Source: Gammaproteobacteria bacterium
Lineage (GTDB): Bacteria; Pseudomonadota; Gammaproteobacteria; Nitrosococcales; Methylophagaceae
Length of the DNA: 64,000 nt
Direction of reading: 5' to 3'
Assembly (NCBI GenBank): GCA_029248745.1
Contig: JAQWIT010000003.1
Location: forward strand, 1-64,000
The notes beneath the pieces are model-generated. The model did not search any database and was not told where the DNA came from. It saw nothing but the letters and a program-made list of their open reading frames with translations. The position numbers were made by a program, and so were the translations under genes. Of this stretch, positions 20,338 through 50,843 are shown piece after piece (the first letter of the stretch is position 1; each line of letters begins with the position of its first letter).

Positions 20338-23064
20338 ATGGTAAGTAAGTTTTTCGGTAAAGTCTTCGGCAGTCGAAATGATCGTGTTCTTAAAAAACTC
20401 CGAAAAGTGGTTAAAAAAATTAACGACTTTGAACCGACTATCGAAAAAATTAGCGATGCTGAATTACAGGCTAAAACTACGGAATTTCGCCAACAATTAG
20501 CTGATGGGCAAACCCTCGACGATATTTTACCGGAAGCATTTTCAGTCGTAAGAGAAGCAGGTAAGCGCGTTTTGAATATGCGCCATTTCGATGTTCAAAT
20601 GATCGGTGGTTATGTCTTGAATGAGGGCAAAATTGCTGAGATGCGGACGGGTGAGGGTAAAACCCTTGTCGCGACATTAGCTGTGTACCTGAATGCACTT
20701 GAAGGCGAAGGTGTGCACGTTGTTACGGTTAATGATTATTTAGCACGGCGTGACTCGGCTTGGATGAGCCAGCTCTATAGTTTCTTAGGCTTGACTACAG
20801 GTGTTATCGTCGCTGGTTTATCACCGGATGAACGCCGTAAAGCATACAACTCAGATATTACTTACGGCACCAACAACGAATTTGGTTTCGATTATCTACG
20901 CGATAATATGGTGTTTAGTATTGACGAAAAAGTACAGCGAAACCTGCATTTTGCGGTCGTCGATGAGGTTGACTCAATTTTAATTGATGAAGCCCGTACA
21001 CCGCTGATTATTTCCGGCCCAGCCGAAGACAGTTCTGAACTATATCAAAGTATCAATAAACTGATCCCCAGCCTTGAGCAACAAACAGGTGAAGGTGAAG
21101 AAGTTGAAACACCGGGTGATTACACTGTCGATGAAAAAGCAAAGCAAATTCATTTTACGGAAGATGGCCATGAAAAAATTGAAGGTTTGTTAACAGACGC
21201 TGGTATTTTGGATGCTGATGCTAGTCTTTATGATGCAGCTAACATTGGCCTAATGCACCATGTCTCTGCTGCTTTACGTGCACATGTTTTATTCCAACGT
21301 GATGTCGATTACATCGTACAAGATAATGAGATTGTTATTGTCGATGAGTTCACGGGTCGCACAATGCCTGGGCGTCGTTGGTCTGAAGGTCTACACCAAG
21401 CTGTAGAAGCCAAAGAAAACGTCAAAATCCAGAATGAAAATCAGACACTGGCCTCGATTACATTCCAAAACTTTTTCCGTTTGTACGATAAGTTATCCGG
21501 TATGACGGGTACAGCGGATACTGAAGCCTTTGAGTTACAGTCGATCTACGGGCTTGAAGTGATTGTTATTCCGACTCATCGTGAGATGAAACGGATTGAT
21601 TCGGCAGATCAGATTTATTTAACGACACAAGAAAAATACCAAGCGATTGCCGAAGCGGTTAAAGAATGTGCCGAAAAACAACAACCTGTCTTGGTCGGTA
21701 CCTCATCGATTGAAAGCTCTGAATATTTGCATGGCTTATTGAAGAAAGCCGGTATTGCACATGAAGTGCTCAATGCTAAATTCCATGAAAAAGAAGCGTT
21801 TATCATTGCTCAAGCAGGTCGCCCAAGTGCCGTAACAATCGCTACTAATATGGCCGGCCGTGGTACTGATATCGTATTAGGTGGTAGCTTGGAAGCAGAA
21901 CTAGTGGAGCTAGGTGAAGAAGCCAGCGAAGCTGACAAAGTCGCTATCGAGCAGGCATGGCAACAGCGTCATGATCAAGTTCTAGCTGCCGGTGGCTTAC
22001 ATATTATTGGTTCTGAACGTCATGAATCTCGTCGTGTTGATAATCAATTACGTGGTCGTTCTGGACGTCAAGGTGATGCCGGTTCGAGCCGTTTTTATCT
22101 ATCGCTGGAAGATAACTTGATGCGTATATTTGCATCAGAAAAAATGTCAGGTTTGATGCAGAAGCTTGGTATGGAAGAAGGCGAAGCCATCGAACATCCT
22201 TGGGTGTCGCGTGCGATCGAAAATGCCCAGAAAAAAGTAGAAGGTCACAACTTTGATATTCGTAAGCAAGTTTTAGAATATGATGATGTGGCGAATGACC
22301 AGCGAAGAGTGGTTTACGAGCAACGCAATGAATTAATGGCAACAGAAGATGTGTCAGCCACAATTACATCAATGCGAGAAACCGTTGTAAACGGTGTTAT
22401 CGATCAATACATTGCGCCGAACAGCATAGATGAACAATGGGAGTTAGAAGGCCTCAATCTAGCGTTTCGTGATGAGTTTGGCCTAGAAATCGATGTTGCC
22501 CAATGGCTACAAGACGATGATGAATTACACGAAGAAACCTTGCGTGAAAAGATCATCATAGAAGTTCAAAATCAATCTGATAGTAAAGAAGCATTAACAG
22601 GCTCAGAAGTGATGCGTCATTTTGAAAAAGCGATCACGTTACAAACATTGGATTCACAGTGGAAAGAACATTTGGCGCAAATGGACTACCTCCGCCAAGG
22701 TATTAATTTACGTAGTTATGCCCAAAAAGATCCAAAACAAGAATACAAGCGTGAAGCCTTTGAAATGTTCACTACTATGCTCGATCGTATTAAGCATGAT
22801 GTCGTTTCGCTTATTTCAAGAGTTGAATTGCATGCCCAAGAAGACGTTGAAGCCATTGAAGAACAACGTCGCCAATCAGGTGGCGATATGGAAATGCAGC
22901 ATGACCAGGTTGATGGCATGACGGGCGAGACCGAACAAGCCAATCCGGATATTGAGCAACAAGCGAAACCGATCACACGTGAAGGCAAGAAAGTGGGACG
23001 AAATGAACCTTGTCCTTGTGGTTCAGGTAAGAAATATAAACAATGTTGTGGGGCCTTGTCTTAA
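20338..23064 (+). CDS. secA: Preprotein translocase ATPase SecA
   Basis: The 908-residue motor drives Sec-dependent protein export. Walker A TGEGKT is at about 104-109; [15 protein letters not shown] is the DEAD-type Walker B; helicase motifs ([20 protein letters not shown]) follow. The C-terminal zinc site binding SecB is intact: Cys892, Cys894, Cys903, Cys904. It overlaps argJ by one base. Confidence 0.98.
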
Positions 23065-24290
23065 TGGCAGTAAATTTGCCTGCGATCCAAGCAGAACAAT
23101 TATTGGCCGTTGACGGTATACGGTTAGCGACAGCCAGTGCTGGGATTAAAGTTAATGGCCAAACCGATTTAGTTTTGATCGAAATGGCACAAGGTAGTCG
23201 TGTGGCCGCCGTCTACACCCAGAATGCCTTTTGTGCTTCACCAGTCACCATAGCAAAACAACATCAACAAACGACAGCCCCGCGTTATTGCTTAATTAAT
23301 TCAGGCAATGCGAATGCTGGCACTGGACAACAAGGTGATGAAGCAGCAATACGCTGTTGTGAATTATTGGCACAACAGGTTAACGGTAAAACGGAAAGCG
23401 TCCTGCCTTTTTCTACCGGTGTGATTGGTCAGCCATTACCCGTCGAGAAAATTCAAGCGGCACTGCCTGATCTGGCTTCTGGACTAAGTGCCGATAATTG
23501 GTTTGATGCTGCCCATGGCATTATGACAACAGATACGCTAGCTAAGGCTGTATCAAAACAAGTCACAATTGAGGGCAAACAAGTCACGATTACCGGCATG
23601 TCAAAAGGCTCAGGGATGATTAGACCGGATATGGCGACTATGCTGGGTTATATCGCAACCGATGCCAAGGTTTCTCAACCAGTTTTAGATAAAATGCTCA
23701 AGCAAGCGGTTGAACAATCATTCAACCGTATTACCGTAGATGGTGATACGTCGACCAATGATGCTTGTATTTTGATCGCAACTGCTAAAGCAGATAATGC
23801 TGAGATAACGGCATTTGATAAGGCATCAGCCCAAACTTTATATCAAGCAATTGCTGAAATCAGCCGACAATTGGCTCACGCTATTATTCGTGATGGTGAA
23901 GGCGCAACCAAGTTTGTTGAAATCACGGTTGAACAAGGACAAAACATGGTTGAATGTCGGCAGGTGGCTTACACCGTTGCTCATTCTCCGTTAATCAAAA
24001 CGGCCCTGTTTGCATCTGATCCGAACTGGGGACGTATTCTTGCCGCCGTCGGGCGCAGTGGCCTGCAAGATTTTGATTTGAGTAAGGTGACGATTTATCT
24101 AGATAATGTTTGTATCATCAAAGGTGGACAGCCTGCGTCAGGCTATACAGAAGCACAAGGGCAATCGGTGATGGATAACAGTGAAATCACGATTAAAGTC
24201 GTATTAGAACGTGGCCAAGCAAATGATACTGTCTGGACTTGTGATTTTTCCTACGATTACGTCAAAATCAACGCCGAATACCGTAGCTAG
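23064..24290 (+). CDS. argJ: Bifunctional ornithine acetyltransferase / N-acetylglutamate synthase ArgJ
   Basis: A 408-residue self-cleaving arginine-biosynthesis enzyme. The cleavage sequence MATMLGY places the nucleophile at Thr192. Other landmarks are GSGMIRP and the C-terminal DPNWGRILAA. The ATG at 23064 overlaps the secA stop (TAATG); an earlier in-frame start at 23043 lies within secA. argJ directly after secA also occurs in Pseudomonas. Confidence 0.96.
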   Translation: MAVNLPAIQAEQLLAVDGIRLATASAGIKVNGQTDLVLIEMAQGSRVAAVYTQNAFCASPVTIAKQHQQTTAPRYCLINSGNANAGTGQQGDEAAIRCCELLAQQVNGKTESVLPFSTGVIGQPLPVEKIQAALPDLASGLSADNWFDAAHGIMTTDTLAKAVSKQVTIEGKQVTITGMSKGSGMIRPDMATMLGYIATDAKVSQPVLDKMLKQAVEQSFNRITVDGDTSTNDACILIATAKADNAEITAFDKASAQTLYQAIAEISRQLAHAIIRDGEGATKFVEITVEQGQNMVECRQVAYTVAHSPLIKTALFASDPNWGRILAAVGRSGLQDFDLSKVTIYLDNVCIIKGGQPASGYTEAQGQSVMDNSEITIKVVLERGQANDTVWTCDFSYDYVKINAEYRS

Positions 24291-41266: not shown

Positions 41267-42780
41267 TTAAGCCGTTCCGGGTTTAAACTGCGCCAATAAT
41301 GAGCGTGAGCTATCAATCGCATTATTGATTTCATCAGCAACACTAAGGGCCTGATTAACCGTTTCGGTTGTACTGTCTGCAAAGGTTGTGACATTAGTAA
41401 TTTTCTTACCAATTTCATCAGTCACTACTGACTGTTGTTCAGTAGCAGAAGCAGAGTTTAAGGTGCGGTTTAATGCATCACCCGCTTGAGCAGCATGTTG
41501 AACACTTTCTTCAGTCTGCTGATTACTTTCGTTGATCGCAGTGACAGCTTCTTGTGTTTGGCCTTGTAAACGTTCAACAATGCTACGAATTTGTTCCGTT
41601 GATTGTTGAGTACGTTGTGCCAAAGTACGCACTTCATCAGCTGCAACAGCAAACCCAAAACCTTGTTCACCAGCACGTGCTGCTTCAATCGCTACATTGA
41701 GTGCTAATAAGTTAGTTTGCTCAGCGATGCCTGTGATAACTTCAAGGACTTGCCCAACTTCTTGGCTATCTGCATCAAGCCTCTTAATGACGTTTGATGC
41801 ATTATTAATACGGCTAGACATCGATTCATTACTCTCAATAGCTTGTGTCACAATCTCGCTACCATTTTCGGCTTCTTTGTTGGCCTTATCAGCTGCTTCA
41901 GCGGCTTGAAGGGTATTTTGAGCAACCATTTTTAATGTTGCTGTCATTTCATGCATCGCTGTGGCAACCATGCCAACAGCAGTATGTTGTTCGTAAACAC
42001 TAGCAGTTGTATATTTTAATGAGTCTAATACTTTAGATGCTTTGGCGCTAATGGTTTCACTTGCCGCTTGAATACCCACAACTAAATCATTAACAAGGCG
42101 GAAGAACACATCGATGTTTTCTGCATCTTGCTTATCTTCAGCACGACAATAGTCGCGGTATCAAGTTGGACATCGAAATTTTTAGTTTCAACAGCAGCAG
42201 CAACATTCGTCTTAAAGCGTGCACTCGTTGAGAATTGTTCTTGCATAGTGGCACCAAAGAATATCAAAGCGGCAACTTCGATACCGGCAAAAGAAAAGTG
42301 AATAATGAATGTCACTCAGTTACAGTTTTCAGCGAATAACTGTAGAGGGACACCCATAAATTCAACGCCAGTCAATTGGAAATACATGAAAATGAAATGA
42401 CGAACACCAATTAAACCGGTTGCGGTAACTAGGGGACGCCAATCACGGTAAATCAACATTAACGTAAAGACGACAAATACATGGAAATGCATTTCTATTC
42501 GGCCAAGCTGTTGCGTAACGAAAATAGTGGCAAACACCATCAAACACATTGATAAAATAATACGTGAGGCCAAAGTCCTTTTGATAGTCGTATAAGTGAA
42601 AAAAGCAGCAGCAGCAACGAGTAAGGCAGGAATATCACCTTATAGGTGTATATATCATAACCCTTGGGCACGATAAGCCATGCAAATGGCAAGTGGGCTA
42701 ATAGAATATAGGATATAAAGAGACGAGTGCTCGTAATCGAGCCTTAACTTCTCGGCTACGGTTTGGTCAATCTCATTCAC
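41267..42780 (-). pseudogene. Methyl-accepting chemotaxis protein, multiply disrupted
   Basis: The conceptual protein has an N-terminal multi-helix membrane sensor (e.g. VFATIFVTQQLGRIEMHFHVF) and a full cytoplasmic signalling domain with the hairpin tip [23 protein letters not shown]. From the GTG at 42780 it meets TGA at 42655-42657, TAA at 42640-42642 and TGA at 42316-42318 in frame, then shifts frame near 42155. The last 280 codons (41267-42109) are open and contain the whole signalling domain. Confidence 0.85.
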
Positions 42781-42822: not shown

Positions 42823-43383
42823 TTAAAGTGTTTGTGTCATTTCTTGCAAATCTAAATAGTCTTTTAGTACAGCTTTTTCATTTAAATTTAAATAAGGATA
42901 GGTTTTCACCCACCGTCCGTTTTTATCAATTAATTGGATCGATGAATCGTGTTCAAGTTCATCACGTGCCTTGACTCTGACGTATGTATTGAACTGCTCG
43001 GCAAATTGTTGCAAAGCTGCTTGGTCAATATTAGCGAGATAACTTTTTAAATGTTCAATGTTGTCACGTTCGTTATCAACAGAAACAAAAATTAAGCGCG
43101 TATTTTCAGGCAGGACAGATTTGAGCTTGATAAATTGAGAAAGGGTAAAAGGGTAATTATCCGCGCAATGACTAAAGCCGGAGGTGAGCTAAGTGGTATA
43201 GCCTTTTAGAACTTCGATGGAAAAAACACCCTCAACTGTACTAGCAATGATGGGTGTCGTAATTACTCTATCTCTTCTGAGCCCATAGCCATTGTCTAAC
43301 AAGTTACTGCCAAAAACAGTCCAAGCGAGAGCTAGTAAGAGCAGTAATGATGGAATTAGAATGTTTATTGTTTTTTTACGCAT
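42823..43383 (-). pseudogene. SCO1/SenC-like protein, in-frame stop and lost copper ligand
   Basis: One frame encodes an N-terminal membrane anchor (about residues 7-26) and a thioredoxin-like SCO domain (FTLSQFIKLKSVLPENTRLIFVSVD, then the C-terminal SIQLIDKNGRWVKTYPY). TAG at 43189-43191 cuts it after GYTT. The copper site CxxxC normally reads like CPDVCP; here it is CADNYP, so the second cysteine is gone (a Cys-to-Tyr change). Both point to lost function in cytochrome oxidase copper delivery. Confidence 0.75.
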
Positions 43384-43547
43384 AGCGTGTTTAATGTTTG
43401 TCTCAATATTAAAAGTTAGACCGACACATTTATCTAAAGATAATTAGGTATCGGCACAATGCTAGAAGAATTTAAGAAAGTGATTTAACGCTGTGATTAT
43501 CATCATAAAATAGACAAATGGTAATCTGTCTTTATTAAACACATGTC

Positions 43548-45019: not shown

Positions 45020-45936
45020 GCTTTCGTATTATCAAACCCGGGTTTCTAGCGACTATACAAGATACCGGAAGGGCGGGTTATGCTGAACAAGGCCTCAGTC
45101 AGTCGGGGGTTGCCGACGAACAAGCCTACCATTGGACGAATTATTTGTTAGGTAATCACTTTAATGATGCAGCAGTTGAGCTCACGATAGGCAACGTCGA
45201 ATGGCAAGCTTTAGATGATATGGAAATGGTGATATGCGGTGCCGATATGGGATTCACCATCGACGAAAACCCCATTGCGATGTGGCAAACAGCATTAATC
45301 AAAGAGGGTGAAGTCTTGCGCTGCCAAACATCCAAGAAAAATGCAGGGTTGAGAGCAATAATAGCAGTCAAGGGAGGCTTTCAGAGCCAACCTGCTTTTG
45401 GCTCTAGATCAGTCAACTTACGTGAGCAAATCGGACAAGTAATTAAAGCCGATGAGACCTTGCTGACATCATCCTTGGTGATACAAAAAACAATCACACG
45501 CCAGATACCAGATTATTTTAAACCTGATTACACCCAACCATTGGTATTAAGGCTGATACCGGGCTATCAATACGATGACTTTACTGAGCAGCAGATCGAG
45601 ATCTTATTAAATCAGCACTATTTATTAAACGCGACTTCAGATAGAACAGGATGCAGATTACATGGTCAGGCTATCCATAACGTCCCAGAAAAAATGATTT
45701 CTGAAGGCGTGACCTATGGCAGTGTTGAAATTACGACAGATGGTCAGCCAATTATCTTACTCAAGGACAGACCAACGATTGGGGGCTATCCCAAAATAGG
45801 CACAGTGATGTCACTTGATTTATCGCAACTAGCGCAAAGGCAAGCCGGCACACAGATAAAATTTGAATTAATGACCTTAGAACAAGCACAGCAACAGCGC
45901 AGAGAATTTAACCTTTTCTTTGGCTTATATAACTAA
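45016..45936 (+). CDS. pxpC: 5-oxoprolinase subunit C (KipA-like, biotin-dependent carboxyltransferase family)
   Basis: The 306-residue subunit has the KipA signatures: IIKPGFLATIQDTGRAGYAEQGLSQSG at the N terminus (shown only as landmark positions 4-28), then SDRTGCRLHG and the substrate-loop type EGVTYGSVEITTDGQPI. It completes an intact pxpABC operon. Its end overlaps the convergent MATE gene by four bases. Confidence 0.93.
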   Translation: MSFRIIKPGFLATIQDTGRAGYAEQGLSQSGVADEQAYHWTNYLLGNHFNDAAVELTIGNVEWQALDDMEMVICGADMGFTIDENPIAMWQTALIKEGEVLRCQTSKKNAGLRAIIAVKGGFQSQPAFGSRSVNLREQIGQVIKADETLLTSSLVIQKTITRQIPDYFKPDYTQPLVLRLIPGYQYDDFTEQQIEILLNQHYLLNATSDRTGCRLHGQAIHNVPEKMISEGVTYGSVEITTDGQPIILLKDRPTIGGYPKIGTVMSLDLSQLAQRQAGTQIKFELMTLEQAQQQRREFNLFFGLYN

Positions 45937-47258
45937 ATCAGTACTTCTTGTTTAACTTTACTACGCATATGGACAAATTGTAGGCTAACCGTTAACCAAC
46001 TGGCTAAGGCAATAGACCACCAAATACCAAAGATATTGGTTTCTAATACGAACAAGGCAATGACGATAAATAGTGATGGTAATATTAATTGACGAGCAAG
46101 GTTAAAATACATCGGCACAGCTGCTTGCTTCATTCCTTGTAGGACTGCACCTGAAATAAAGGAGAGCACGTAGGCAGGGAGAATAATGGCTTCAACACGT
46201 AGATAGCCAACACCAATTTCAATGACATTGGGATCATCAGTAAACAGTGAAATTAATGTGCTAGCAAAGATGAACACTAAAATACCACCAAGGACCATCA
46301 TCGCTGTGCCGATTTTGATTGAGTCGAGGGCAACTTTCTCCATTCTCTGAAATTGCCGGGCACCATAATTAACACTGACTAGGGACAGCACAGCAATATT
46401 AATTCCGACTGTAGGTAGCAATACTAACTGTTCTACACGTAACGCAATTCCTAAGCCAGCCACAGCACCTTCACCAAATTGGGCAACGGCCGCCGTGACG
46501 ATGATTGAGCCTAATGCAATTAGAAACATATTGGTGCTGGCAGGCAAGGATTGATTAAACAGGGCACGATAATACGACCAATTAGGAATCAAGTGTTGCC
46601 ACCGTAAACAATAGCCTAATGCACTCTGTTTTACTTTCCAAGACAAGTAAAGTGCACTACCTAATTGCGTGAGTGCTGTAGCAGCAGCTAAACCGTAAAC
46701 ACCCCAGCCAAAGCCAAACATAAGCAACGGATCTAATATGATATTGGCTAAAAAAGCCACGATAAGACTGTTTCGAAAACTAGTGGTATCACCCAAGGAA
46801 TTTAAAATACCATTGGCCGCCATCACATGAGCTGAGAAAGCCAATGTCGGTAAGATAATGGATAAATACTTTAAAGCATCATTTAGATAAGCACCTTCAG
46901 CACCCATAAGATGAAAAAGGTCAGAAGCGAAGATCAAGACAGTTAAACCAATGACGATGGCAGATAGCCATGAAAAAGAAAGTGCTTGTCCCGCAATTTC
47001 CTCAGCTAAATCATGCCTTCCTTCACCACGGGCATTCCCAACGAGGGTATTGGTACCTTGGCCGACACCAATAGCAACAGCGATACCCAAAAAATAAATC
47101 GGTGCTGCCAGAGAAAGTCCCGCTAGGGCGGTTGATGACAACATGCCGGCATAATAATTATCGACAATGTAGTACATCGTATTGAAAAACATACCAATAC
47201 TTGCGGGTACAGCGATTTTTTTAAGTAAATGCGGTATGGGGTCTTTGGTCAGATCCAA
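45933..47258 (-). CDS. MATE family efflux transporter
   Basis: A 441-residue membrane protein with about twelve hydrophobic segments in two bundles. The start TKDPIPHLLKKIAVPASIGMFFNTMYYIVDNYYAG is typical of the DinF/NorM superfamily (landmark only). MATE proteins export cationic drugs by Na+ or H+ exchange; the substrate here is unknown. The start is TTG at 47258 with an AGGA site. The frame is intact. Confidence 0.88.
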   Translation of the reverse strand: MDLTKDPIPHLLKKIAVPASIGMFFNTMYYIVDNYYAGMLSSTALAGLSLAAPIYFLGIAVAIGVGQGTNTLVGNARGEGRHDLAEEIAGQALSFSWLSAIVIGLTVLIFASDLFHLMGAEGAYLNDALKYLSIILPTLAFSAHVMAANGILNSLGDTTSFRNSLIVAFLANIILDPLLMFGFGWGVYGLAAATALTQLGSALYLSWKVKQSALGYCLRWQHLIPNWSYYRALFNQSLPASTNMFLIALGSIIVTAAVAQFGEGAVAGLGIALRVEQLVLLPTVGINIAVLSLVSVNYGARQFQRMEKVALDSIKIGTAMMVLGGILVFIFASTLISLFTDDPNVIEIGVGYLRVEAIILPAYVLSFISGAVLQGMKQAAVPMYFNLARQLILPSLFIVIALFVLETNIFGIWWSIALASWLTVSLQFVHMRSKVKQEVLI

Positions 47259-47424
47259 GTGCGTTCCTAAGTAACGAAATACAGAAAAATCACAGCGAAT
47301 AATGAAGTGCTCTTAGCCGTGAGCCAGGAGCAAAATTATAGCTTGTCTTGGATAAATCTGTTGGTTTAAAACGCTAGCCACCGAAGTCACGAGGGCTTGG
47401 GTGGCTAATCATGTTGATGGTTGA

Positions 47425-48090
47425 TTAAATTCTAATCGTACCGCCATAATACGATGGCGCCCTCATAGAAAAGTTTTCACAGTAGGTCAATTTCTGCTCT
47501 TCAAGAATACCAACGGCAATTTTTTCACCCATACGTAACGATTCGATATAGTCGGTGAAGTAACGCACACCGGCCCAATCACGTCCAATCGCAATATTAG
47601 ATGCCAGTTTATTTAATTCACCTTCAACGGTTAGTGATCCATCAGTGACAGGTGCTGTCTCCAATTTTGAACTGTCTGGCGTCGGGACAAAAGCCGTTGT
47701 GTCATTGCCCGCTAAATTCAGCGGATGTTTATGATCAAAAAAGGCTTTCACAATCCCTAAATCATTGCCACATGGCCAAATAAGCGGAATAACGAGTATT
47801 TCATTCTTCTGCTTCGTATCACATAACTTTTGAAACTCATCCGCTGCACGAACACAGTTTCAGGTTATTTAGAAAAGCCTCGCATATAAATAAGAATTTG
47901 CTTGTAATCGCAGGCTTTCAGTTGCTTAAGAAAAGAGACACTACCAATTTCTGTATGTTTTTCATCTTCACCATACTCACAGAAAAAAAACAGAATTACT
48001 CGCAGCATTATTATCAAGATCAAAACTGAAATTGCGCCCAACACGGGTCAGGATACTTTGTTTGGAGAAACGGTTCGTAGTAAATAACAT
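47425..48090 (-). pseudogene. Deletion fusion: alpha/beta-hydrolase-like 5' part joined to haloperoxidase-like 3' part
   Basis: The 5' part (48090 to about 47757) starts with a strong AGGAGGGAG site and encodes VGRNFSFDLDNNAASNSV, ILIYMRGFS (hydrolase-like HG loop, His now Arg) and LVIPLIWPCGNDLG. It is broken by an eight-base T-run (47983-47990, one T too many), a TAA after GFSK and another shift. The 3' part (47425-47750) encodes KAFFDHKHPLN, NIAIGRDWAGVRYFTDY and GILEEQKLTY, the C-terminal end of a vanadium haloperoxidase-like PAP2 protein. The join near 47742-47756 lies at IVKA, where both parents may share similar sequence. Confidence 0.65.
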
Positions 48091-48205
48091 GTAGACTCCC
48101 TCCTAAGATGTCAATAAAAATAGAACATCTTCATTCTAAATCCAATAAAGGCAGTAAAGCAATAACCGAATTGAGTTGATTAAATAACGGGATTTAATGG
48201 GGTTG

Positions 48206-48832
48206 TTACAGCTGGCTGATAGGGATCAATACCTCATTCCGTCGTAAAAACCATGGCGTGAAAGGGGCGTTATATCGCGCCCAAATAGCTTGGCCATTTA
48301 TTCGATAACCTGATTGTTTAATCCAGGTCTCGAGCTCAGCTTTATGCTCTAAATAATTAGACTCACTCCAAAAACCTGAATAGTGAATAGCCGCTATCGT
48401 CTGGCTAGGTACTTGTCTTAGAACAACACGGTCATCTTCAGGTACCGGTAGGGTCTCAATTGTGTATGTATTAGGCATCATAAAACTAATAGCCCAACCG
48501 TCACCTACTTGCTGCTGGCCTGCGGGTGCCGTCAAGGCGATTTCTTTATTTGATTGTTGTTGACTAACAGGGGCAGTCATAGCGATATCAGTTTGCGATC
48601 TATTACTGCCTGTTATGTAGCCGAACAGCCGCTGAAAAGCCGCATTACCCGCTTTTTCGATATCTTCATAAACAACAGTTTCGGCCACAATGTGTGGTGA
48701 ATAGAGACGCACTTCAATATCACCGTGTTCTGAAACGAGGTCGTACTCTGCTTCTTCTATCGCCATAGCGGGCTTAATTGAAAAAAGAACAAGGAAGAGC
48801 GGGGGAAGGAGGAAGCTTTTTAACAATGTCAT
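48206..48832 (-). CDS. SOUL family haem-binding protein
   Basis: The 208-residue protein has a signal peptide (residues 1 to about 24, ending AMA) and a SOUL domain: EAEYDLVSEHGDIEVRLY, the paired IAMTAPV / IALTAPA segments, and a C-terminal ARYNAPFTPWFLRRNEV typical of the family. SOUL proteins bind haem; this one is probably periplasmic. The frame is intact and divergent from ung. Confidence 0.9.
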   Translation of the reverse strand: MTLLKSFLLPPLFLVLFSIKPAMAIEEAEYDLVSEHGDIEVRLYSPHIVAETVVYEDIEKAGNAAFQRLFGYITGSNRSQTDIAMTAPVSQQQSNKEIALTAPAGQQQVGDGWAISFMMPNTYTIETLPVPEDDRVVLRQVPSQTIAAIHYSGFWSESNYLEHKAELETWIKQSGYRINGQAIWARYNAPFTPWFLRRNEVLIPISQL

Positions 48833-49013: not shown

Positions 49014-49691
49014 ATGTTTCTAGATAAAGCGCCCACATGGCAAGCAAGTCTGTCTGCTGAAATTGAACAGCCTTACATGCATGGTTTAAAGACATTTTTA
49101 CGGGTAGAAAAAGATCAAAAAAAGATTATTTTCCCCCACTCATCTAACTGGTTTCATGCATTAGAAACGACACCACTAGATGAGGTCAAAGTTGTCATCC
49201 TTGGCCAAGACCCTTATCACCAACCCGGTCAAGCCCATGGTTTATGCTTTTCAGTGCAACCGGGTGTTAAAGTCCCCCCATCACTCGTTAATATTTACAA
49301 AGAATTAGAAACTGACTTAGGCATCGCGATCCCAGACCATGGTTATCTTGAAAACTGGGCTAAGCAAGGTGTGTTATTACTCAATGCTGTATTAACGGTA
49401 GAAGACTCAAATGCCAATGCCCACCAAGGAAAAGGCTGGGAACAATTCACCGATAAAATCATCAGCACGGTCAATGAGCAATGTGATCACGTTGTCTTTA
49501 TGCTCTGGGGCAGTTATGCCCAGAAAAAAGGCAAGATGATTGATGATCAAAAACATCTGGTATTAAAGGCACCGCACCCGTCACCGCTTTCAGCTTACCG
49601 TGGTTTTTTTGGCTGCAAGCATTTTAGTCAAGCGAATAGTTATCTGGTAGATAAGGGCAAAGACATTGTTGATTGGAATGTACCAGGATAA
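49014..49691 (+). CDS. ung: Uracil-DNA glycosylase
   Basis: A 225-residue family 1 UDG that excises uracil from DNA. The catalytic GQDPYH lies at 64-69 (Asp66), and the leucine-loop motif [14 protein letters not shown] starts at His188. An AAAGGA site lies about ten bases upstream of the ATG. Complete and of normal length. Confidence 0.97.
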
Positions 49692-49798
49692 AAATCAAAC
49701 TGGCTGACCCCTTGCTTGTTCATCACAGAGAAAATATTTCTTAGTCCCACACGATTTTTTCTAAGTTATAGCTCAACATGTTTTCTATTCATAAGGCC

Positions 49799-50355
49799 CT
49801 AGGCAGTGGCGTGCGTTAGCACATCCTGCTGGCTTAGCTTGTTAATTGCCTTTATGGTCAAGCAACTCAATAAAGATTGAAAAATCATCTTTTTTACTCC
49901 TTTGTATGGTAACGCATCGATATGTGGTTTCATTTCTTTCGGCATGTAAACCGGATTATTTATGTAAAACCACATCATAAGAAATCGATGCGGCCAAAAT
50001 TGTGTATTGTTTGTTTTTTCAAATAATTCTGATGCCAATAATGGTATCAACCATGCCGTATCTGAAAAGAATTTCACCATTTTATCTGGTTCTTTGTCTA
50101 CATGATGAAAGAAGTTCCTGGGCTCTCTAAATGCATATAAGAATTCCTTTTTAATATTGAACTACTCAAGCATGGGATTATCCTCAAGATTTCTCTCATG
50201 CGATTTTGCTTTGCAAATATCTGAGAGTATTTCATACGAAGACCATGCCGTTGTATAGACAGTTATTGGGTCTTCCTCTTCAAAGAATAAACGAATAGAA
50301 GACTCAGCTGCCTTTCTGCAACTTCAAGCTTCCCTGATTCAATTAATTTTCCCAT
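49799..50355 (-). pseudogene. Conserved hypothetical protein, disrupted
   Basis: A family I cannot name. Read across lesions it gives MGKLIESGKLEVAERQL, then FFEEEDPITVYTTAWSSYEILSD, EFLYAFREPRNFFHH and FMMWFYINNP. The first frame is lost within about 20 codons (indel near 50300), and a TAG interrupts the second frame after NPMLE near 50165. The last 93 codons (49799-50080) remain open. No membrane segments are evident. Confidence 0.55.
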
Positions 50356-50564
50356 ACTGAGTTTGATAGATTTGATAAATCTCTAACCTGTGAATGCTTC
50401 TCTACAGCCAATACTTGAGTAGGAGAAGCCTTCGCTATACCTGCCAACCTGAAAGCTGCAATAGCTGTAAACAGTCCACCGAGCGCACCAATAAGGCTCG
50501 CAACTGCGGTTAAGGCAGAAACTGTGTTTTGATCTATCGCGATTTTAAACTCTTCTAAGCACAT
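50343..50564 (-). CDS. Hypothetical small membrane protein
   Basis: A 73-residue frame with one or two hydrophobic stretches (TAVASLIGALGGLFTAIAAF, about residues 18-37). Its end overlaps the start of the preceding disrupted gene by 13 bases, which looks like an operon join and argues for a real gene. No family recognised and no strong ribosome site. Confidence 0.35.
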   Translation of the reverse strand: MCLEEFKIAIDQNTVSALTAVASLIGALGGLFTAIAAFRLAGIAKASPTQVLAVEKHSQVRDLSNLSNSVWEN

Positions 50565-50577
50565 AACAGCCTGTTAA

Positions 50578-50835
50578 TTAGGAATGAGTCCTCATTAACA
50601 ATATTAACGGGAATCCCTTATAGTTGTTTTGATGCCGGAATGAGGTTTTTATAAGGCTATGTTTTCCCTGTATTTCTACCTTGAACCCATTTTGTTCGCT
50701 TTTATTAAAGAGGCAAGATACTCCTTTAATATTGTCTGAACATAACGAGAAACGATACATTGCTATTGAATGAGAATCAGAGTCAATGATCTTAACAAAT
50801 ATCGAACAGCTGAAAAGAACGATGATCGCGTACAA
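50578..50835 (-). CDS. Doubtful small open frame
   Basis: An 85-residue frame with a hydrophobic N terminus (YAIIVLFSCSIFV) that could be a signal peptide, followed by an unrecognised polar region. It fills the gap before yheS and points away from it. It may be a real small exported protein or chance. Confidence 0.25.
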   Translation of the reverse strand: MYAIIVLFSCSIFVKIIDSDSHSIAMYRFSLCSDNIKGVSCLFNKSEQNGFKVEIQGKHSLIKTSFRHQNNYKGFPLILLMRTHS

Positions 50836-50843
50836 TACCCGTC

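Follow-up and report, generated by a model that had tools for sequence, protein, structure and literature searches.

Background

Spontaneous deletions with microhomology at the junction are described for Salmonella in PMC3411829, which cites Albertini et al. 1982. For Haloquadratum walsbyi, PMC3119063 reports indels flanked by repeats that range from 4-mers (6 cases) to 10-19 bp (16 cases); repeats that vary slightly in sequence are also noted there.

We report a locus of a gammaproteobacterium in which a deletion of about 2.3 kb very probably fused two neighbouring genes, for a DUF900 alpha/beta hydrolase and for a vanadium bromoperoxidase (VHPO), into a dead in-frame chimera. It lies on the minus strand of the window, i.e., of the whole analysed stretch of 64,000 nucleotides. 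An earlier note, made from the sequence alone, had proposed a fusion of two unrelated genes by deletion; its particular claims are considered below together with the results that bear on them.

Results

The chimera and its parents

The chimera consists of codons 1-115 of the hydrolase gene followed by codons 488-594 of the VHPO gene (Table 1). The parents were recognised in G012, a genome of the same genus. Its hydrolase protein matched the genome of the window at 47725-48090 (52% amino acid identity, E 2e-31) and its VHPO protein at 47428-47763 (80%, E 2e-55); the same two queries retrieved no second copy of either gene from the window genome. The earlier note had described a hydrolase-like 5' half that continues, at GIVK/AFFDH, as the C-terminal end of a vanadium haloperoxidase-like protein. 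These matches bear this out, as does the in-frame join: the hydrolase frame through GIVK continues into AFFDHKHPL and so on. The strong ribosome site suggested before the 5' half is also present, as an AGGAGG upstream of the ATG. The frame opened by this ATG ends after 37 codons; the same frame, regained later, reaches the VHPO stop at 47425. The listed open reading frame of 108 codons at 47425-47751 is the VHPO tail with one start codon added.

Table 1. Features of the chimeric locus and its flanks (positions in the window; codons in G012 numbering)
Feature	Position	Strand	Basis
DUF900 alpha/beta hydrolase remnant, codons 1-115 of 324, ending at the AAA of the join	47746..48090	-	comparison with G012 and G016
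VHPO remnant, codons 488-594 and stop, open frame	47425..47748	-	comparison with G012
Join, AAAG common to the two parents, at the left end of 24 bases with 16/24 identity	47745..47748	-	alignment with parents
Run of 8 T, frame change relative to G012 and G016	47983..47990	-	alignment
TAA stop at hydrolase codon 75; Leu in 17/17 compared hydrolase loci	47865..47867	-	alignment
Second frame change, opposite in sign to the first; exact place alignment-dependent	47844..47845	-	alignment
AGGAGG, probable ribosome-binding site of the remnant hydrolase gene	48104..48099	-	read from sequence
ATG start of the hydrolase remnant	48090..48088	-	read from sequence
MATE transporter gene, intact, synteny anchor	45933..47258	-	
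SOUL haem-binding protein gene, intact, synteny anchor	48206..48832	-	
Uracil-DNA glycosylase (UDG) gene, synteny anchor	49014..49691	+	presumed identity

G012 holds the two parents as complete, adjacent genes on one strand (VHPO of 594 aa, hydrolase of 324 aa), so the fusion is more than a chance juxtaposition. The gene order there is MATE, VHPO, DUF900 hydrolase, a 136-aa gene and SOUL, followed on the other strand by a gene which we take, in both genomes, to be UDG. This order recurs in the window, except that the chimera stands where VHPO and the hydrolase would be and that the 136-aa gene is missing. At the DNA level, positions 20879-21203 of G012 contig C10 correspond to window positions 47424-47748 (78%), and positions 23502-23924 to 47718-48140 (74%). 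The parents thus occur in a relative as separate neighbours, hydrolase then VHPO, on the same strand and between the same flanking genes, which the earlier note had proposed as a check. The locus tree (MATE and UDG proteins) joins the window genome to G012 (ultrafast bootstrap 89%), and support for the next nodes is weak (36% and 45%). The tree contains 17 genomes of the 23 loci fetched, the remainder having too little of these two proteins.

The family assignments come from the intact genes. Pfam DUF900 (PF05990) matched the hydrolase orthologues of G012 and G016, and the hydrolase had no PDB sequence match at E 0.1. The G012 VHPO matched the vanadium-dependent bromoperoxidase 5lpc_A (E 4e-206) and the haloperoxidase 1qhb_A (E 2e-169), presumably the Acaryochloris and Corallina enzymes; no Pfam match was obtained for the intact VHPO. 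In the Pfam/NCBIfam search with the remnant pieces, the 5' half gave only a sub-threshold DUF900 match (E 0.037) and the VHPO half gave none. No RNA element was found in 47200-48300 at the Rfam gathering level.

The join

The window follows the hydrolases of G012 and G016 through ATT GTG AAA and the G012 VHPO from AAA GC onward, so that the DNA alignment across the join places the switch of parents within AAAG, the exact word common to the G012 parents. In G012, the two AAA are separated by 2330 bases (633 of the hydrolase, 236 intergenic and 1461 of VHPO); in these terms 2330 bp are absent, which agrees with the earlier statement that the middle of both genes is gone.

The word AAAG alone is weak evidence for homology at the join, because 1.9% of the hydrolase/VHPO position pairs share at least 4 bases (2.7% in codon phase). 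Counted from the join onward, with the word included, the parents agree at 16 of 24 bases, which 84 of the 1,578,375 pairs attain, and at 18 of 30 (219 pairs); both lengths were chosen after the alignment had been seen, so these small fractions overstate the case. Across the join, the parents are identical at 12 of 24 bases when 12 are taken on each side (15,256 pairs, 1.0%) and at 24 of 60 when 30 are taken (19,998 pairs, 1.3%). The proposal of microhomology at IVKA is therefore sustained in part: there is similarity at the join, i.e., the imperfect match of 16/24, but the exact segment comprises 4 bases (the Lys codon and one more) and not IVKA. This is most naturally read as a deletion directed by a short homology with some mismatches, the machinery of which would most likely be replication slippage or another short-homology joining.

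No fused hydrolase-VHPO gene was found in a second genome among the matches from the species collection, from which records very near this genome were possibly omitted, so the junction is without independent confirmation. This would suit an assembly chimera, to which we nevertheless give very little credence: the join lies about 47 kb inside a contig of 390,930 bases, key residues are changed in both halves, and the search of the genome gave no second copy of either gene from which such a chimera could be built.

Decay of the hydrolase half

The earlier note had reported a frameshift at a run of 8 T and a stop in the 5' half. Both are present, but there are two frame changes and not one; they are of opposite sign and cancel, hence the join is still in the hydrolase frame. 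Twenty-four columns are invariant in 17 other hydrolase loci, including L183, which itself has a stop. The window departs at 4 of them (His70 of the HGF motif, Asn74, the stop at 75 and Asp108). When the 17 loci are left out one at a time, each shows 0 or 1 departures, except L183 with 4. His70, which is His in 17/17 loci, is Arg in the window. Ser164, present in 17/17 loci and presumably the nucleophile within HSMG, lies beyond codon 115, hence within the deleted part. The chimera lacks both the nucleophile serine and the intact frame that a DUF900 hydrolase requires.

State of the VHPO half

The VHPO tail is an open frame, 82.6% identical to G012, with 73 differences distributed over codon positions 1/2/3 as 13/7/53. 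It departs at none of 14 invariant columns and at 1 of the 39 columns with at least 90% conservation; one or more departures at such conserved columns occur in 39 of 77 relatives. The departures of the tail are no more than in many relatives; therefore, by this count, it does not look decayed. Since the differences are mostly at third positions and the conserved columns are kept, the tail was under selection for most of its branch.

At the sole changed column, His549, the window has Arg, and 81 of the 82 rows of relatives have His (the window and G012 rows left out, genome G055 counted twice). From its spacing to Arg543, we take His549 to be the axial histidine that binds the metal (vanadate), and the catalytic set to be Lys400, Arg408, His476 (acid-base), Arg543 and the axial His549 in G012 numbering. 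Lys400, Arg408 and His476 all precede codon 488 and are deleted; Arg543 is kept, and the complete set is not present in the chimera. Judging by the residues retained, neither enzyme activity can be expected to remain. At another locus, L011, the VHPO C terminus has Asp at the position of His549 and many departures at conserved columns; that VHPO may itself be broken or badly sequenced.

The slight decay of the tail counts against a dead chimera: either the break is recent, or the tail is still selected. One might suppose that the in-frame join gave an expressed chimera and that the VHPO C-terminal piece is still translated and selected as a small non-catalytic protein. The open frame, the identity to G012 and the predominance of third-position differences speak for such a function, present or past, of the tail or of the young chimera. 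We hold it to be very improbable that the tail, or the young chimera, serves or served as a small protein, and the selected, still translated non-catalytic product is hardly to be expected either: the active site is incomplete (three residues deleted, Arg at 549), the frame from the ribosome site closes early, and a recent break would mean that the conservation largely dates from before it.

Order of events

At codon positions 1 and 2, the hydrolase half has 23 changes on the window branch versus 12 on the G012 branch; for the VHPO half, the corresponding counts are 12/5 (with L004), 12/4 (L002), 11/6 (L003) and 12/4 (with G055 as the outgroup). All changes in the hydrolase half number 48 versus 28 (p = 0.03), and the locus-tree branch of the window genome is longer than that of G012 (0.127 versus 0.047). 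The halves do not differ in their excess, with which a recent loss of both together is compatible. Comparison of the substitution patterns of the two halves on the window and G012 branches gave no signal for the order of the frame changes and the deletion. With a single genome carrying the fusion, the later gain of the frameshift that the earlier note had stated is one possible order among others.

It is possible, although rather doubtful, that the locus was lost in several steps, i.e., that the hydrolase was already frame-broken and smaller deletions had occurred inside the lost 2.3 kb before the final join. The 5' half carries two frame changes and a stop while the frame of the 3' half is unbroken, any earlier deletions within the missing stretch would have gone unrecorded, and genome G003 (see below) shows another way of losing the locus. 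However, the excess at positions 1 and 2 is similar in both halves, so an earlier loss of the hydrolase is not demonstrated, and one event is the simpler account. We therefore retain the single deletion as the more economical reading.

Distribution in relatives

Within the genus, the hydrolase was found in 4 of 29 genomes (intact in G012 and G016, as the chimera here, and as codons 300-324 only in G003) and VHPO in 2 of 29 (G012 and the tail here). No further copies of either gene were found in 63 genomes of the order at E 1e-20; among the 62 other genomes of the order, only G012 had VHPO at this threshold. Across the class, the hydrolase occurs in 16 of 369 genomes, counting that of the window, with up to 79% identity; in the 15 others no VHPO was present within the flanks covered, up to 1.5 kb on each side. 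A conserved hydrolase-VHPO operon was considered and is unsupported, since the pair is not seen in these flanks.

The open reading frame 47425-47751 had 88 matching stretches in the species collection. Eighty of these were retained, and in 67 of the 80 a single alignment covers VHPO from codon 20 or earlier to codon 576 or later. An intact orthologue with the same fused order, which the earlier note named as evidence against its reading, was sought and not seen: the hydrolase was not found around the 80 VHPO loci (38 of them with the full 5 kb on each side), and no other fused gene was found in the 63 genomes of the order. Nor did a relative point to a different origin of either half, the other result that the earlier note had named as contrary.

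The patchy presence suggests a horizontal gain at the MATE-SOUL spot with repeated loss. In G003, the last 25 hydrolase codons (C222:20956-21033, L098:8957-9034) lie beside MATE, with other genes before SOUL; this remnant is a different loss at the same locus. In G016 (67% complete), an intact hydrolase lies between MATE and UDG (C12:104948-106202, L090), and the stretch read there has no VHPO or SOUL match.

Neighbouring genes

Other genes near the chimera are also affected. A gene on the minus strand at 42826-43419, presumably SCO1-like (70% to G012), is interrupted by a stop codon near 43189. Another at 41273-42774, also minus and presumably methyl-accepting chemotaxis-like, is split by a frame change and stops; its counterparts in G012 and G016 are open frames of 516 and 517 aa. 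The 871-aa gene beside UDG in G012 and G016, which we assume to be PEP carboxylase, is absent at window positions 49692-50843 and has no match elsewhere in the genome; the search, which did recover it in G012 and G016, gave only distant matches in G003 and G010 and none in G011. A 93-aa open reading frame at 49799-50080 sits in that space. The broken neighbours and the missing 871-aa gene fit a general gene loss in this genome of 1.73 Mb.

Discussion

The following course of events is very probable. The ancestor would have had the DUF900 hydrolase gene between MATE and SOUL with VHPO directly downstream on the same strand, as G012 still has. A deletion of about 2.3 kb would have removed the DNA between hydrolase codon 115 and VHPO codon 488, the intergenic gap included, and the ends would have been joined in frame at the shared AAAG, at the edge of the imperfect 24-base match. 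The product, which lacks catalytic residues of both enzymes, would since have been decaying through frame changes, a stop and the loss of key residues.

The locus shows the marks of a chimeric pseudogene of a known kind: intact separate neighbours in a relative, a single point at which the parents switch, and loss of frame and key residues. It is a case of ordinary gene loss with an unusually clear record. We believe that it provides a clean worked example of the bacterial loss of a pair of enzyme genes, with an intact sister locus and a base-exact junction of unrelated genes, and a third genome, G003, where another kind of remnant occupies this position, adds to the record of the locus being lost. 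It also records the loss of a vanadium haloperoxidase in this genome; no general understanding is changed by it.

Comparison with known systems

The 5' half covers the N-terminal third of a protein of the DUF900 alpha/beta hydrolase family (PF05990); unlike the members of this family, it has the nucleophile region deleted, the HGF histidine replaced and the frame broken. The 3' half represents the last 107 residues of a protein in the family of the vanadium bromoperoxidases 5lpc_A and 1qhb_A, from which the chimera differs in lacking residues 1-487 and in having another residue in place of the axial histidine.

As to the junction, joining at short identical segments is common to the chimera and the Salmonella deletions, and rearrangements of up to 5 kb are classed there as deletions; the cut-off deduced there for true deletions is at least 8 bp, whereas the exact match here is 4 bp (PMC3411829). 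As in Haloquadratum walsbyi, one copy of the short shared word stays at the join; unlike here, the comparison there concerns an archaeon, is made between strains and has single-base resolution (PMC3119063). For the chimera, the parental sequences come from a relative whose DNA differs by 22-26%, and the 4-base word may accordingly differ in length from the repeat at the time of the event.
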